Of a stretch of DNA of 47,171 nt, positions 38,802-47,171 are shown one piece after another. Positions within the stretch are counted from its first letter, which is position 1. Each line of letters opens with the position of its first letter. The DNA is taken from positions 1-47,171 of IMG/VR virus record IMGVR_UViG_3300044640_001077, one strand, 5' to 3'. The notes under the pieces are model-generated. The model did no database searches and was not told where the DNA came from. It saw only the letters and a program-made list of their open reading frames with translations. The position numbers and the translations under genes are program-made. This DNA is from a virus.

Positions 38802-38918
38802 TTAATTGAGAGTGTTTAAGTCTTTAAATTCTTGTTTCGTTTCGCGGATAACTCGTGGCAACTTAGTAAGCCACCATACGAATCCGACTAGTAGCGCAAT
38901 GATAAGTAAGTCCATCAT
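38802..38918 (-). CDS. Small single-TM protein
   Basis: 38 aa: MMDLLIIALLVGFVWWLTKL then a basic-acidic tail (PRVIRETKQEFKDLN). ATGA overlap with the upstream gene. Could be membrane-lysis, membrane-depolarisation or an anchor for replication. Confidence 0.6.
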   Translation of the reverse strand: MMDLLIIALLVGFVWWLTKLPRVIRETKQEFKDLNTLN

Positions 38919-39322
38919 GATTCTCCTCCTTTCGATTTTGCGATAGCTTGTTTTGCGTGTGTAATTGCGGGTTCGTCTCCTTCCAGCTCCCCATTCCCGC
39001 CACTAATACACGACTCAAATCGCGACAGAATGTCTTCCAATGCTTGGCGTAACTCGTTACGTTGTTCGACCAAACCTTCAATCATGTGCCGTTGGTTGTC
39101 GTTGTGGGCTTGGAGCTGATCACGCTTGGCTATCAAGGCGTAGTTATCAGCGATAACCTGCGGTACAAGGTTCTCGTATGCCTCGACCTCCGCTTTCAGT
39201 TTGATGTTCTCTGCAATAGCCGCTTGTGCAGAAAAATCAGATGTGTTTTTTGTCTCGTTGCTCAATGAGTGTTTCATGCTTTCAAAGGGTGTTCCTTCGT
39301 TAAAATAATCTTCTGTTTTCAT
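38915..39322 (-). CDS. Coiled-coil protein with duplicated N-terminal tag
   Basis: 135 aa from ATG 39322. The first 17 residues (MKTEDYFNEGTPFESMK) and 36 nt upstream are nearly identical to those of the gene at 45986. After that it is a long coiled coil (AIAENIKLKAEVEAYENLVPQVIADNYALI, QRHMIEGLVEQRNELRQAL). Function unknown. Confidence 0.7.
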   Translation of the reverse strand: MKTEDYFNEGTPFESMKHSLSNETKNTSDFSAQAAIAENIKLKAEVEAYENLVPQVIADNYALIAKRDQLQAHNDNQRHMIEGLVEQRNELRQALEDILSRFESCISGGNGELEGDEPAITHAKQAIAKSKGGES

Positions 39323-39363
39323 ACTATAAATTTTACTTGTTAAGCCGCACTTCGTAAGGCTGC
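39272..39363 (-). repeat. 92-bp direct repeat, copy A
   Basis: Nearly identical (2 mismatches) to 46349-46440. On the minus strand it includes a palindromic GCAGCC...GGCTTAAC stretch, a 5' leader, the start codon and 17 codons. It is a portable 5' module. Confidence 0.9.
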
Positions 39364-39390
39364 AAACCGTTATACACAATAAAAACAAAA

Positions 39391-43304: not shown

Positions 43305-43352
43305 CATATATGCAAAATTAATTTATAAAAAAATAGCCACCCTCCGCACATT

Positions 43353-43441
43353 TCGGCAATATTGGGTTCGGAGTACCGCACCCCAACACGTGCCGATAAC
43401 GGTCAACTGCCAAAATTCGGAGTACCGAACTATCGGCAGTT
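43353..43441. repeat. Two tandem imperfect palindromes with a shared TTCGGAGTACCG core
   Basis: P1 has outer arms TCGGCA (43353-43358) and TGCCGA (43391-43396); P2 has AACTGCC (43405-43411) and GGCAGTT (43435-43441) with an inner TTCGG-AGTA-CCGAA hairpin. On the minus strand P2 is preceded by TATAGCG and followed by CCGTTATC, like two core sites around a variable stem. Confidence 0.6.
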
Positions 43442-43459
43442 TTTGCGCTATAAGCCATT

Positions 43460-43744
43460 TTAGAACAACGACCCGTTATCAAAAATAACAGGCAGACGAT
43501 ACCCATCAAATCTGAAATCAAGTGAAACAAACTTTGGACTTTTACGACCAAACCATTTCCACCATAATTTTTTATACCAAGCACTTTTTGACAACAAACT
43601 TTTATATGCTTGTTCTAAATGTTTTGCCTGTTGCATATTTCTTGAAACGATTATGCAATTAGGTCTTTTGATAGCTGACTGTAAAATCCAAGTTGTGTTT
43701 CCAGTTGCTCTTGTTGTTCTGATAATTTCTTCTAATCTTGTCAT
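43460..43744 (-). CDS. Protein of unknown function
   Basis: 94 aa. RLEEIIRTTRATGNTTWILQSAIKRPNCIIVSRNMQQAKHLEQAYKSLL. Looks like a truncated ATPase-type phage protein (the strand-loop NTTWILQSA replaces a P-loop), but no family is certain. AT-rich. Confidence 0.55.
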   Translation of the reverse strand: MTRLEEIIRTTRATGNTTWILQSAIKRPNCIIVSRNMQQAKHLEQAYKSLLSKSAWYKKLWWKWFGRKSPKFVSLDFRFDGYRLPVIFDNGSLF

Positions 43745-43787
43745 TGTTTTTAAATTAAATTGTTAAGCCAAACACGAATAAAAAACG

Positions 43788-43882
43788 GCTTATAACAGTG
43801 GTTTGGCAAAATACCGCCACAAGCCTTTGTACTATAATTCAACATTCTGCAAGGCGGTACTTCGCCAAGCCACAAAACGCTA
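43788..43882. repeat. attC-like imperfect palindrome between accessory genes
   Basis: 21-nt arms 43797-43817 and 43852-43872 pair with 3 mismatches (T-for-C types, tolerated as G-T). Outer cores: CTTATAAC and CGCTAT. Loop about 34 nt. This size and layout resemble integron attC sites or RNA-processing stems. Next to a gene stop on each side. Confidence 0.55.
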
Positions 43883-43891
43883 TCAGACAGC

Positions 43892-44326
43892 TTAATAGCG
43901 AAAATCCGTAAAATGAATAATTGCCATAGGTTTGTCTGACCTAACTTTGAACCACTCACAAAAATCTTCAAAACTTAATCCGTCATTTTTTGCTACCAAA
44001 TCCCAGTTTACTTTTTTACCTTCAATAGGTGCAAATACAAAATTGTTTGGTTGTTCTAATTTTTGCATACCTATTCCGTGAGTTTTATCATACTTGAAAA
44101 TCTCTTGCTGTTTACTTTGGTATGGTTTGCCTGACCAAATTCTAACTGACAAAATAGCTTCGCCTTTGTTTATTTTTTCAAATCGTTTAGCCCACAAATC
44201 ATAGTTACCTCTGATAGTGTGTATTTTATCATAATGTTTAATTGACAAAGGAAAACCTGTTGGCTTGCCTGATTTTTTGTGAGTTTTTGGAAAGAACTCT
44301 GAAACTATTAAAACGAATGTTGTCAT
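43892..44326 (-). CDS. Protein of unknown function, possible ASCH/PUA-like fold
   Basis: 144 aa. FVLIVSEFFPKTHKKSGKPTGF, IHTIRGNYDLWAKRFEKINKGEAILSVRIWSGKPYQSKQ resembles the ASCH fold that binds RNA or modified nucleotides. The end FCEWFKVRSDKPMAIIHFTDFRY. AT-rich. Confidence 0.55.
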   Translation of the reverse strand: MTTFVLIVSEFFPKTHKKSGKPTGFPLSIKHYDKIHTIRGNYDLWAKRFEKINKGEAILSVRIWSGKPYQSKQQEIFKYDKTHGIGMQKLEQPNNFVFAPIEGKKVNWDLVAKNDGLSFEDFCEWFKVRSDKPMAIIHFTDFRY

Positions 44327-44373
44327 AATTGAAAATATTAGAAAGCCGTCTGCTCACAGCGGTTTTGTGCTAT

Positions 44374-44631
44374 TTAATTTTTTACCAATTTGCTTGCTCC
44401 CGCTATTTGCTGATAAATTATATTTATATCCTCAACCAATAGCGGTATACACTGAATTACTAAGCTATGTGTGCTAAATTTCCTGCTTACGTGGGCTGTT
44501 GGATGCAAACTATTATTTGGCACAAAATGAATTTTAATTATTTGAATAGTTCCAATTTGTGCATCTATTTCAACGTAGTATTTTGCAACACCACCGCTTA
44601 CTTTACGCCTCTTATATGTTATTGTTCCCAT
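44374..44631 (-). CDS. Protein of unknown function
   Basis: 85 aa. Short basic start (MGTITYKRRKVSGGVAKYYV). The stretch HFVPNNSLHPTAHVSRKFSTHSL reads like translated inter-cassette DNA rather than a normal core, so the 3' half may be non-coding; the gene may be a truncated start. It overlaps the next gene by 13 nt. Confidence 0.4.
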   Translation of the reverse strand: MGTITYKRRKVSGGVAKYYVEIDAQIGTIQIIKIHFVPNNSLHPTAHVSRKFSTHSLVIQCIPLLVEDINIIYQQIAGASKLVKN

Positions 44632-44843
44632 GTTTCACATTTTACTATATCAGAATCTTTAATAGAGGTAATACTTCTTACCACTTTGTACCCACTTTCG
44701 CTTTGGAATAATCCATAAGGTAGTTCACGTTTTATAAGAGTTTCAATAGATCCGTTGTTAACCCTTATTTGAGTTCCTAATTCTGTTTTTTTATAAATTT
44801 CTATCATTTTATTGTTAATAATACGCACTGCGCCAATATCCAT
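44619..44843 (-). CDS. Protein of unknown function
   Basis: 74 aa. MDIGAVRIINNKMIEIYKKT, IRVNNGSIETLIKREL, SESGYKVVRSITSIKDSD. Small beta protein. AT-rich accessory region. Confidence 0.5.
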   Translation of the reverse strand: MDIGAVRIINNKMIEIYKKTELGTQIRVNNGSIETLIKRELPYGLFQSESGYKVVRSITSIKDSDIVKCETWEQ

Positions 44844-44857
44844 CGTTAGCAGTAATA

Positions 44858-45013
44858 CTAAGAACGTCCTTCGTTAATCTTTTCGATTAATTTTTGAGTT
44901 TTCATTCTTTGTTCGCCAACAATACAAGCACAGGCTACGCATTGAGTTTTACACTGTTCCCCTTCGAGAACTTTGTTCATTTCATTTTCAGATAAGCCCA
45001 TATCAATGCACAT
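44858..45013 (-). CDS. Small Cys-rich protein
   Basis: 51 aa from ATG 45013, 1 nt after the methyltransferase stop; a longer frame would overlap it by 62 nt. MCIDMGLSENEMNKVLEGEQ, four Cys in CKTQCVACAC, then QKLIEKIN. A metal-binding knot is possible. Not recognised. Confidence 0.5.
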   Translation of the reverse strand: MCIDMGLSENEMNKVLEGEQCKTQCVACACIVGEQRMKTQKLIEKINEGRS

Positions 45014-45014
45014 T

Positions 45015-45593
45015 TTAGTTAAACCAACGCAAAGTAGTTTCTCCTTTAAATCCCTTTTCCCAAACATACCAAGCATAACAGTTGGCAGAGGGTGTATTGT
45101 ATTTCACAAAGTCTGCATTTTTTGCAAGTAATAATCTTGAACTACTTACATATACATACTTTGGCGGGTTCGCAAGTAAAAACGGTTTACGTTTTTGCCC
45201 TTCCAAAAATTGAATACGCATCAGCATTACTACTTTACTTCCTTCATCTACACAATCAAGAGCGTGTTGGCAAAATTTCATTGCATCTCTGTATGGTGGA
45301 TTTGTTAAAATATCTCCTTCCCATGTTTCAGAAAAGTAGTAGAAATTACTTTCTGTTACCCCATAACCTCTATCAATCAAATCACTTGCTCTTCCAAGCA
45401 ATCCTCTTGCATCTAATACTTTTGCTAAATGCCCTTCTCCACAAGCACATTCCCATACGTTCCGTAATTCAATACCTGTTTGGTCTAAAAATAATTCTAA
45501 TGCCTTTGGGTCGGTAGCATAAAAATCATTTTCTTCTCTTTCTTCATCAGAATGAGCAGTTGCTCCAAGTGTTGTAAAATCTCCTTTTCTCAT
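45015..45593 (-). CDS. SAM-dependent DNA methyltransferase-like protein
   Basis: 192 aa. DFYATDP (23-29), WECACGEGHL (47-56), GDILTNPPY (NPPY 98-101) form motifs I and IV in alpha/gamma order, as in phage N6-adenine methyltransferase-like proteins. The end ANCYAWYVWEKGFKGETTLRWFN is typical of this phage family. A second methyltransferase besides the one at 33.7 kb. It may protect or mark phage DNA. Confidence 0.85.
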   Translation of the reverse strand: MRKGDFTTLGATAHSDEEREENDFYATDPKALELFLDQTGIELRNVWECACGEGHLAKVLDARGLLGRASDLIDRGYGVTESNFYYFSETWEGDILTNPPYRDAMKFCQHALDCVDEGSKVVMLMRIQFLEGQKRKPFLLANPPKYVYVSSSRLLLAKNADFVKYNTPSANCYAWYVWEKGFKGETTLRWFN

Positions 45594-45665
45594 ATATTTT
45601 TAAATTAAATTTGTTCTAAATAAAGTACTGCAACTAAATATACTTGCAAACCCTTAGGTAACCTT

Positions 45666-45920
45666 TTACCATGACACAGATACATCAGCGTTATAACCGC
45701 TATCACATTCGCAAATAACAACCTTGCACTGTTCAAGTCCATTACGTTCTAAACAATAATACCTGCAATGTTCTGTTTTATAAATTAGCTCTTTTCTCTC
45801 AATATACTCTCTCTCTCTTTTACTTTTTTTTTCTTCATCAATACATGAAGAAAAGACGGCACAGAACAGCACACTTGCAAAAGCAAAGGCTAATCGGTTA
45901 ATTGAAATTTTCGTTTTTAT
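45666..45920 (-). CDS. Small lipoprotein, apparent ATA start
   Basis: The lipoprotein signal reads KTKISINRLAFAFASVLFCA, then VFSSC (lipobox). In frame, the codon before KTK is ATA, where an ATG is expected; TAA lies 1 codon further on. A GTG at 45872 would cut the signal in half. So this may be a non-canonical start or a start lost by one base. The rest (68 aa from GTG) is Lys/Glu-rich with Cys pairs (HCRYYC, CKVVICEC). Confidence 0.55.
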   Translation of the reverse strand: MKTKISINRLAFAFASVLFCAVFSSCIDEEKKSKREREYIERKELIYKTEHCRYYCLERNGLEQCKVVICECDSGYNADVSVSW

Positions 45921-45985
45921 AATTTATTTTGTTTTAAGTTGATAATTTTTCTTTCTTAATCCCTGCCTTCGCAAGCCCAAAACCG

Positions 45986-46399
45986 TTAGCGGTCAATGCC
46001 GCATGGACATTGACTATCGTGAACAAGCGGGTTTTTACACCGACAAAACTCTTTTGGCACTTTCTGAATCGGCAACACAGCCGCTAACAGCGGTTTAATG
46101 TCTGATTCAATAAACTTTTGGTACAAGTCCGATGCGTTTAAAACTTGTTCACCATTAGACCAATCGCCTGAGCCTATATGCTGGTATTGTTCGTTTTCCA
46201 ACCATGTTAAAAAGTTATGCGCTTGCATCATTGCAAATTGCTCAATAACCTCTGTAATGAAATCTTGATCTTCGGCTTCTTCAATGGTGTGTCCGTAGCT
46301 GATTTCTTTTGGTAGCAATACTGTTAGTTGCTCTTTTGCTTTTAATGCTTTCATGCTTTCAAATGGTGTTCCTTCGTTAAAATAATCTTCTGTTTTCAT
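45986..46399 (-). CDS. Protein with duplicated N-terminal tag, C-terminal Cys-rich end
   Basis: 137 aa from ATG 46399. Shares MKTEDYFNEGTPFESMK with the gene at 38915 through the 92-bp repeat; the rest differs (GHTIEEAEDQDFITEVIEQFAMMQAHNFLTWLE, end FCRCKNPLVHDSQCPCGI). Unknown function; the Cys-rich end may bind zinc. Confidence 0.65.
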   Translation of the reverse strand: MKTEDYFNEGTPFESMKALKAKEQLTVLLPKEISYGHTIEEAEDQDFITEVIEQFAMMQAHNFLTWLENEQYQHIGSGDWSNGEQVLNASDLYQKFIESDIKPLLAAVLPIQKVPKEFCRCKNPLVHDSQCPCGIDR

Positions 46400-46440
46400 A
46401 CTATAAATTTTACTTGTTAAGCCGCACTGCGTAAGGCTGC
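46349..46440 (-). repeat. 92-bp direct repeat, copy B
   Basis: Same as copy A at 39272-39363, with 2 mismatches (one in the codon after GTPF, one in the upstream palindrome). Outside it the two regions are unrelated. It suggests recombination or cassette transfer of a 5' module. Confidence 0.9.
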
Positions 46441-46452
46441 GGGCGTTATAGG

Positions 46453-46605
46453 CTATTTTACCATCCAATCCGAGAGTTTAGACTTAATGATTAATTTCAG
46501 CTCATCTACTCTTGACAGCGGACAGCGAAATGCAACTGTTTTAGTTTGCTCATTATATTTAGGTTTAGCACCCGAACCTTTTCTAGTGCCGCCACTTTTT
46601 TTTTC
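46453..46605 (-). pseudogene. Truncated small gene without a start codon
   Basis: Right after the TAA of the next gene, in the same frame, is an open reading: EKKSGGTRKGSGAKPKYNEQ..., with TKTVAFRCPLSRVDELK and a TAG at 46453. This resembles a small basic protein, but no ATG/GTG/TTG is in frame. A run of 9 A lies at its start. Either a gene broken at its 5' end, read-through of TAA, or a frameshift product. Confidence 0.55.
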
Positions 46606-46800
46606 TTATGCTGCAATTTCATAACCCATTTTAGAAAGTTTTTGAGCATCTACAAAACAAGCAACCCAATATTTGCCGTTATCGCCAAGCAAGACAATAT
46701 GTAATTTTACGCAGTTGTTTGCCCATCTGTTAGCACCTTCCAAAGTTGAAAATTGGTCGATGTTGTTTCTAAGTCCAAGTGTTGTTTTTAAATTTGTCAT
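46606..46800 (-). CDS. Small protein of unknown function
   Basis: 64 aa. MTNLKTTLGLRNNIDQFSTL, ANRWANNCVKLHIVLLGDNGKYWVACFVDAQKLSKMGYEIAA. A compact alpha-beta domain. It has a good promoter and the shared upstream module. Its stop continues into the truncated ORF. Confidence 0.6.
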   Translation of the reverse strand: MTNLKTTLGLRNNIDQFSTLEGANRWANNCVKLHIVLLGDNGKYWVACFVDAQKLSKMGYEIAA

Positions 46801-46824
46801 TTTGTTTTACCGTTTTTGTTGGTA

Positions 46825-46856
46825 CAAATAAATAACACTTGTTTTGATTGTGCAAA
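46825..46856 (-). promoter_or_regulatory. Bacteroidetes-type promoter of the accessory strip
   Basis: Minus strand TTTG (46856-46853), 20-nt spacer, TTTATTTG (46832-46825); one mismatch to TAnnTTTG. 24 nt before the ATG at 46800. Confidence 0.6.
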
Positions 46857-46878
46857 CTTTTTCAAATATATTTTCAAA

Positions 46879-46920
46879 TTATTTTCTAAAGCACTGAAAA
46901 TCAACGAGAAAAAAAACAGC
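46879..46920 (-). repeat. Shared upstream module, copy at the 47-kb end
   Basis: Nearly the same as 33611-33655: ATTATTTTCTAAAG(C/T)ACTGA(A/T)AATCAA(C/A)GAGAAAA. It lies about 25-60 nt upstream of the promoter boxes in both cases. Confidence 0.6.
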
Positions 46921-47000
46921 AGCTGTCACGCAAAAGGCTTTTGCTTCGCAAGGCGGCAGGCGTTAGCGTTCAGGCTAACACCCCCCCCGCAAAGGTGTTA
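46919..47000 (-). terminator. Hairpins and T-run after the tail-fibre gene
   Basis: Minus strand in order: TAACACC...GGTGTTA (47000-46976), GTTAGC-CTGAAC-GCTAAC (46979-46962), GCAAA...TTTGC (46944-46930), then CAGCTGCTG before a run of eight T. A strong end to the fibre transcript. A run of eight C lies at 46981-46988. Confidence 0.65.
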
Positions 47001-47171
47001 TATACTGTAAAATTGCCCTTGGTTACGCTCGAGTGCTTGGCGGTTGGTGGTGGAGAGGACGGAGGGGAACGAAATCAATTCTGATACAGTGCCGTCAAAT
47101 GTGAGCAATGATGCAGTTCCATTCAACGAACCTATAGCACTATTAACCCCCGTATAGAGGCTCGTAATTGT
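46998..47171 (-). CDS. Tail fibre C-terminal end (partial)
   Basis: 57 codons and a TAA at 46998, open to the window edge. LTFDGTVSELISFP, LSTTNRQALERNQGQFYSI is the usual end of LamG/ArfB-type phage fibres. The frame joins that of positions 1-981 (both segments are multiples of three) if the molecule is circular; the joined protein would be about 384 aa. A missing middle cannot be excluded. Confidence 0.75.
   Translation of the reverse strand, partial: TITSLYTGVNSAIGSLNGTASLLTFDGTVSELISFPSVLSTTNRQALERNQGQFYSI

Follow-up and report, generated by a model that had tools for sequence, protein, structure and literature searches.

Cassette arrays that carry attC sites and lack an integrase gene are already known from phages, where their cargo includes methyltransferase genes, and the attC sites of three virulent phages have been recombined with attI1 under IntI1 (Qi 2023, PMC9892861). 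From Bacteroidetes, only integrases without cassettes had been reported earlier, plus one complete integron in Salinibacter ruber (IntegronFinder 2.0, PMC9024848). Here, we analyze a 47,171-bp virus record (IMG/VR IMGVR_UViG_3300044640_001077; the whole stretch is referred to below as the window), which carries the genes of a myovirus (terminase, portal, tail sheath, tape measure, baseplate, primase and helicase) and belongs to the viruses of Bacteroidota. At 43332–46967 it contains a strip of small genes and attC-like elements. Like the arrays in PMC9892861, this strip combines attC cassettes with the absence of an integrase and includes a methyltransferase-like gene. Those published sites came from general attC models, whereas the attC of the window is of a type found in Bacteroidota, its genes are inverted, and exchanges are documented by sister contigs. 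We consider it likely that the strip is a phage-borne, integron-type cassette array without an integrase gene of its own, whose units are swapped by a host integrase acting in trans.

The original prediction, made from the sequence alone, described small AT-rich genes on one strand, separated by attC-like palindromes and scattered GTTATA/GTTAGC cores, with no integrase in sight, and proposed cassette-style gain and loss of accessory genes. The AT-rich strip, the palindromes and the missing integrase bore out; most of the other cores did not. The GC content of the strip is 35.5%, versus 46.5% for the window, which places it among the lowest 1% of same-length stretches, and all of its genes lie on the minus strand. 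This one-strand layout is not special, because most genes of the phage lie on that strand (64 of the 73 open reading frames, ORFs). The strip lies between an adhesin-like gene and a VRR-NUC gene, and ends at about 46967 rather than at 46605 as first proposed. No match to the tyrosine recombinase family PF00589 is found in the window, and an Rfam scan of the window returned nothing relevant.

What the palindromes are became apparent from bacterial chromosomes. Relatives of a 144-amino-acid (aa) gene of the strip and of a repeated half-site were used to gather other viral contigs, in which TAACG, read on the gene strand, forms the core at gene boundaries and precedes an arm that is conserved in part. 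A degenerate pattern of this arm, scanned over 84,980 species with one genome each, yielded no fewer than 118 stretches, and for nearly all of them the record title names Bacteroidota, Ignavibacteria or Chlorobi. The chromosomal stretches are full sites, mostly of 125–127 bp (TAACAGCGGTTTGGCGTAATGGCGG, a variable loop, CCGCCACTACGCCAAGCCGCAAAMCGTTA), with invariant core pairs and outer cores TAAC / GTTA in 37 of 37 sites. Their stem has 94.4% paired cells and a covariation score of 0.092, as compared to 0.035 in shuffled alignments (0 of 500 reach the observed value) and at most 0.041 in slid controls; this score pertains to the chromosomal sites and not to those of phages. The arms pair without a single-base bulge and the asymmetry resides in spacers of 1 and 5 nt; the extrahelical bases for strand choice, by which attC sites are also recognized, are absent. 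The gene ends directly before the attC, on the same strand, for 71 of 72 upstream genes, as in integron cassettes. A single attC of this type is also seen on plasmids NZ_CP106833, NZ_CP081933, NZ_CP055152 and NZ_CP073240 (Empedobacter, Riemerella, Adhaeribacter), and a TGTCGTCTTA-like motif recurs 10–20 nt beyond the CGTTA core in many cassettes that are unrelated to one another (chromosomal loci L032–L149).

A covariance model, R2, was built from the 37 bacterial chromosomal sites and contains no phage sequence; it replaced R1, a model with an automatic RNAalifold structure that missed the outer core pairs. The sites and half-sites of the window, with their R2 scores where informative, are as follows.

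43332–43456, no strand assigned: P2/P1 double hairpin, which closes the strip (fold z −3.5 / −3.9).
43793–43882, plus strand: intact attC site (R2 55.6 bits, E 2.3e-11 in 303 kb).
45864–45988, plus strand: degenerate attC site (R2 42.3 bits, E 6.9e-8; fold z about +1).
46412–46452, plus strand: half-site, R′/L′ arm only (core 46444–46448).
46917–46967, plus strand: half-site at the adhesin-side end of the strip (core 46961–46965; R2 9.7 bits only).
39336–39376, plus strand: half-site copy outside the strip, before gene 38915–39319 (39272–39363 is 98% identical to 46349–46440).

The phage-free model thus matches the main palindrome, which had been noted at 43797–43872 for its 21-nt arms. As single-stranded DNA this site folds better than chance (z −3.8 and −3.4), and it is the sole well-folding attC of the window. 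On the gene strand its core reads TAGCG in place of TAACG, and its outer cores, TAAC / GCTA, are one base off those of the chromosomal sites. The degenerate site retains sequence and ends, with a broken stem, and its end accounts for the core predicted near 45985. The cores predicted near 39368, 44840, 46444 and 46962 proved to be half-sites or bare cores with no significant hairpin or model score, and the three half-sites listed above fold no better than shuffles. The attC model recognizes the plus strand, not the minus strand on which the palindromes had first been read, and the genes of the strip run opposite to it. A 92-bp module, comprising half-site, 5′ leader and the first 17 codons, occurs at both 39272–39363 and 46349–46440, after which the genes diverge; its leader also precedes the 144-aa gene in one of the gathered viral contigs, G002.

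The P1/P2 hairpins, predicted at 43353–43441, are real (z −3.3 to −4.7) and show the expected outer pair ATAGCG / CGTTAT; despite this strong fold, the attC covariance model gives no match to them. Cassettes of different phages join P2/P1 at its core end (43449–43453). The element is 97.5% identical in viral contig L195, with other cassettes adjoining, and its P2 part is also present in G002 and G003. P2/P1 is a possible docking site.

R2 also matches several sites each in contigs G002, G003, G004 and L012. Isolated phages gave no match to the bacterial attC consensus, nor to 38–47 kb of the window by megablast. Polaribacter phage P12002L from PMC9892861, the nearest published case by host, was considered as a carrier of the same type and dropped (best R2 match E 0.54). 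Two model matches, one of them degenerate, and no integron integrase make the window a CALIN, a cluster of at least two attC sites lacking an integron integrase. G002 and G003 show two or more sites more clearly than the window does; an integrase was not searched for in these contigs.

The precise junctions anticipated by the original prediction are indeed found in related phages. Contigs G002, which has terminase and methyltransferase genes, and G003, which has a primase/helicase-like gene, are 99.2–99.9% identical over their common part, except for one insertion of about 1.1 kb. In G002 the gene end is followed by TAACG-GTTTGG, and in G003 by TAACG-insert-TAACG-GTTTGG. L195 and the window have in common the adhesin end (100% over 119 bp), one cassette (96.7%) and P2/P1, with homology starting exactly at TAACG for the cassette, whose exact 5′ edge in the window is half-site 46412–46452, and exactly at the core for P2/P1; between these ends L195 carries different genes, 1.2 kb of them versus 3.6 kb in the window. 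The DNA of the 144-aa gene is 99% identical in G002 and 92% in G004, where homology on the 3′ side stops at the core or within 10 nt of it. Of 12 homology breakpoints, 9 are no more than 10 nt away from a core (TAACG, or CGTTA on the other strand) on both sides, against an expectation of about 6% for each, some of the 12 being non-independent. Breakpoints at the core are consistent with an integron integrase that recombines at G^TT. Together with the attC score, the precise junctions support cassette-style gain and loss, with an integrase as the probable agent. In sister phage L003 the strip is absent and no attC is matched; a 38-bp match of L003 beside P1 was discarded as a precise boundary because a second similar stretch exists in that phage.

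The phage cassettes depart from ordinary ones in orientation. The gene upstream of attC faces the opposite way in 11 of 14 viral contigs, which were found with the same arm pattern, versus 1 of 72 chromosomal sites (Fisher p 1.7e-10). The opposite orientation is also seen in the window, G002, G003, G004, L011, L012 and L195; the canonical form, in which the gene lies on the attC strand with attC at its 3′ end, does not occur in the window. The three same-strand viral exceptions have the highest, chromosome-like scores (127–138 bits). We infer a phage-specific cassette pool. One idea to account for the inversion is that, with the attC orientation fixed, selection favored genes that are read in the direction of phage transcription.

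Which enzyme might act on these sites is suggested by the chromosomes. For each of the 25 genomes with attC that were tested, the best matches to the IntI profile TIGR02249 are tyrosine recombinases that align to both ends of the profile and leave positions ~180–236 unmatched, the IntI-specific insert. None passes the cut-off (whole-protein scores of 178–209 bits versus 265), and by this profile they are not IntI integrases. In Arundinibacter (L187), Chryseobacterium (L188), Cecembia (L189) and Flavobacterium macacae (L190), the recombinase adjoins the array and runs in the direction of the gene-attC units, which is the layout of a complete integron. In Arundinibacter, a gene resembling that of a single-stranded DNA-binding protein lies between recombinase and first cassette (L187, 3934–4281). 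In CP058707 (metagenome-assembled genome Bacteroidota SSA2; 3,475,742–3,986,625; L168, L186), one strand carries at least 150 attC sites along about 507 kb, possibly one of the largest integron arrays, with an IntI-like recombinase about 3.3 kb past the array end. Of 118 genomes drawn evenly from the phylum, 54 have the attC type, 44 the enzyme and 37 both (37/17/7/57, p 6.5e-11, with kinship among genomes ignored); the enzyme was called at a profile E of at most 1e-75, a threshold of our own, placed at the gap above the background of Xer proteins. In eight further viral records with attC, several of them fragments, no relative of these recombinases was found.

The best profile and fold neighbors of the array-linked recombinase are XerA (5hxy), NCBIfam NF040815 and IntI4 (2a3v), with XerA and IntI4 the best matches of its AlphaFold model (predicted local distance difference test, pLDDT, 85). 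Xer enzymes act at one dif site; the recombinases described here, in contrast, adjoin arrays of many sites, and most of those aligned are extended at the N-terminus by a domain of about 65 residues. This domain (L152–L169, A2 columns 201–260) has a W...W.VP pattern, is modeled as beta-beta-alpha-beta-beta-alpha, and is present in more than one copy in two proteins; it looks HARP-like, but Pfam gives no such match. The sedentary chromosomal integrons of Vibrio are similar in that a tyrosine recombinase is accompanied by a large array of near-identical attC sites, all on the same strand, and the 3′ end of the Bacteroidota attC resembles that of the Vibrio cholerae repeats (VCR). Unlike in VCR-type integrons, the Bacteroidota enzyme lacks the IntI-specific insert and the attC stem lacks the single-base bulge. 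An enzyme without the insert, paired with an attC without extrahelical bases, would make a coherent system.

We propose that a Bacteroidota host would supply in trans an IntI-like integrase of the kind that lacks the insert and is common in the phylum. This enzyme would recombine folded attC sites, presumably with single-stranded phage DNA as the substrate, such that accessory phage genes are inserted, removed and swapped one unit at a time. Each unit would be bounded by TAACG on the gene strand; on the attC strand this core reads CGTTA, the sequence that integron integrases cut (G^TT). Cleavage of the phage sites would fall at TAA^CG, and P2/P1 would close the array on one side. Several observations weigh against this proposal. 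Only one site of the window is intact by both sequence and fold, several units are without a full attC, and four small genes stand together without any. The genes are oriented opposite to those of ordinary cassettes. Three breakpoints depart from the core, two of them the 5′ edges of the 144-aa gene and the third a 3′ edge of the cassette shared with L195, and other recombination must therefore also occur. Finally, we assume that the host of the phage is an integrase-bearing species, and recombination at the sites is read from the junctions.

Could the palindromes instead be terminators or mRNA-stabilizing hairpins, and the gene turnover ordinary mosaicism by homologous or illegitimate recombination? 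The hairpins are intergenic, a quarter of the breakpoints (3 of 12) are off-core, and the 5′ module, start codon included, is common to different genes, which looks like homology-driven exchange. However, the site is homologous to a recombinase-linked chromosomal element with invariant core pairs, the preference of breakpoints for the core is far above chance, and the T run that follows P1 in the window is missing in L195, where the element is otherwise nearly identical. We rejected the terminator reading for the main site, 43793–43882, and regard the explanation as a whole as quite unlikely. Somewhat less so, yet still improbable, is the possibility that the sites are relics of integron attC and that phages exchange genes via homologous recombination at repeated site sequences. 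Most sites of the window are indeed half-sites or degenerate, and P2/P1 and the half-sites are conserved enough to provide short homologies. But at the edges of both the G003 insertion and the cassette shared with L195, only about five bases (TAACG) are in common with the other side, and intact sites persist in related phages G002 and G003 (6–7 sites of 59–95 bits).

It is also conceivable that an assembly join produced the last 3.7 kb of the window and that the strip belongs to another phage. Positions 43423–47171 (3,749 bp) match, at 100% identity, the end of a 90-kb phage contig (3300043436_003696; L017/L027) that is otherwise unrelated and has its own terminase and major head genes; the identity starts at the last base of the window and stops at the last base of that contig. 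This reflects either a recent transfer between two phages or a shared assembly-graph edge. On the other hand, joining the ends of the window creates a single open ORF of 400 aa, and the gene order that this joining predicts is seen in L003, whose primase is 71% identical: there, the helicase adjoins VRR-NUC and primase. For these reasons, the window is probably a whole genome, opened at an arbitrary point. A third contig, L195, has the same order of adhesin, cassettes and P2/P1, and this, along with the joined-end ORF, favors the strip truly belonging to this phage. We give the assembly join only a slim chance, and the G002/G003 junctions hold regardless. The cassette array, with exchange by a host integrase, remains the explanation that we prefer.

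The genes of the strip are listed below.

43460–43744, minus strand: cassette gene, 94 aa, no family match.
43892–44326, minus strand: cassette gene, 144 aa, PHROG 8581, function not assigned (phrog_8581 E 1.2e-37).
44374–44631, minus strand: small gene, 85 aa, no family match.
44619–44831, minus strand: small gene, 70 aa, with a bare core TAACG directly upstream at 44848.
44858–45076, minus strand: small gene, 72 aa, no family match.
45015–45593, minus strand: DNA methyltransferase-like gene, 192 aa (phrog_799 E 4.1e-54; Pfam Dam weak, below cut-off).
45986–46399, minus strand: cassette gene, 137 aa (MKTEDYFNEGTPFESMK...), the cassette shared with L195 (96.7% identity over 366 bp, most of its length).
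46606–46800, minus strand: small gene near the adhesin end of the strip, 64 aa, weak phrog_3597 match only.

The 144-aa gene recurs in contigs G002, G003 and G004 with different neighbors, is found in 2 of 395 genomes of the phylum, and behaves as a phage gene. Around its relatives in Bacteroides phage Versailles and in those two genomes, no attC was seen in the stretches fetched.

Phage CALINs are a known kind of element, of which the strip appears to be a variant. We could not find the Bacteroidota attC type, the patch-less enzyme or the inverted cassettes described in the literature searched, which left out preprints and most subscription papers, and their novelty is accordingly not certain. 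A broader proposal is that a widespread integron lineage of Bacteroidota has been missed by current tools, its enzyme being IntI-like without the insert and its attC free of extrahelical bases, and that the phages of this phylum maintain a pool of inverted cassettes of their own, with P2/P1 as an attI-like docking site and the host enzyme acting in trans; we put the chances of this at about even. Should the enzyme be functional, its lack of the hallmark insert has hidden a major cassette system from view. As a rule, the choice of attC strand orients cassettes for expression (PMC8946536), and the inverted phage genes run counter to it. On the phage side, the strip would represent a defined route for the unit-by-unit swap of accessory genes such as methyltransferases, by which a phage would reshuffle its own accessory genes using the recombination machinery of its host.

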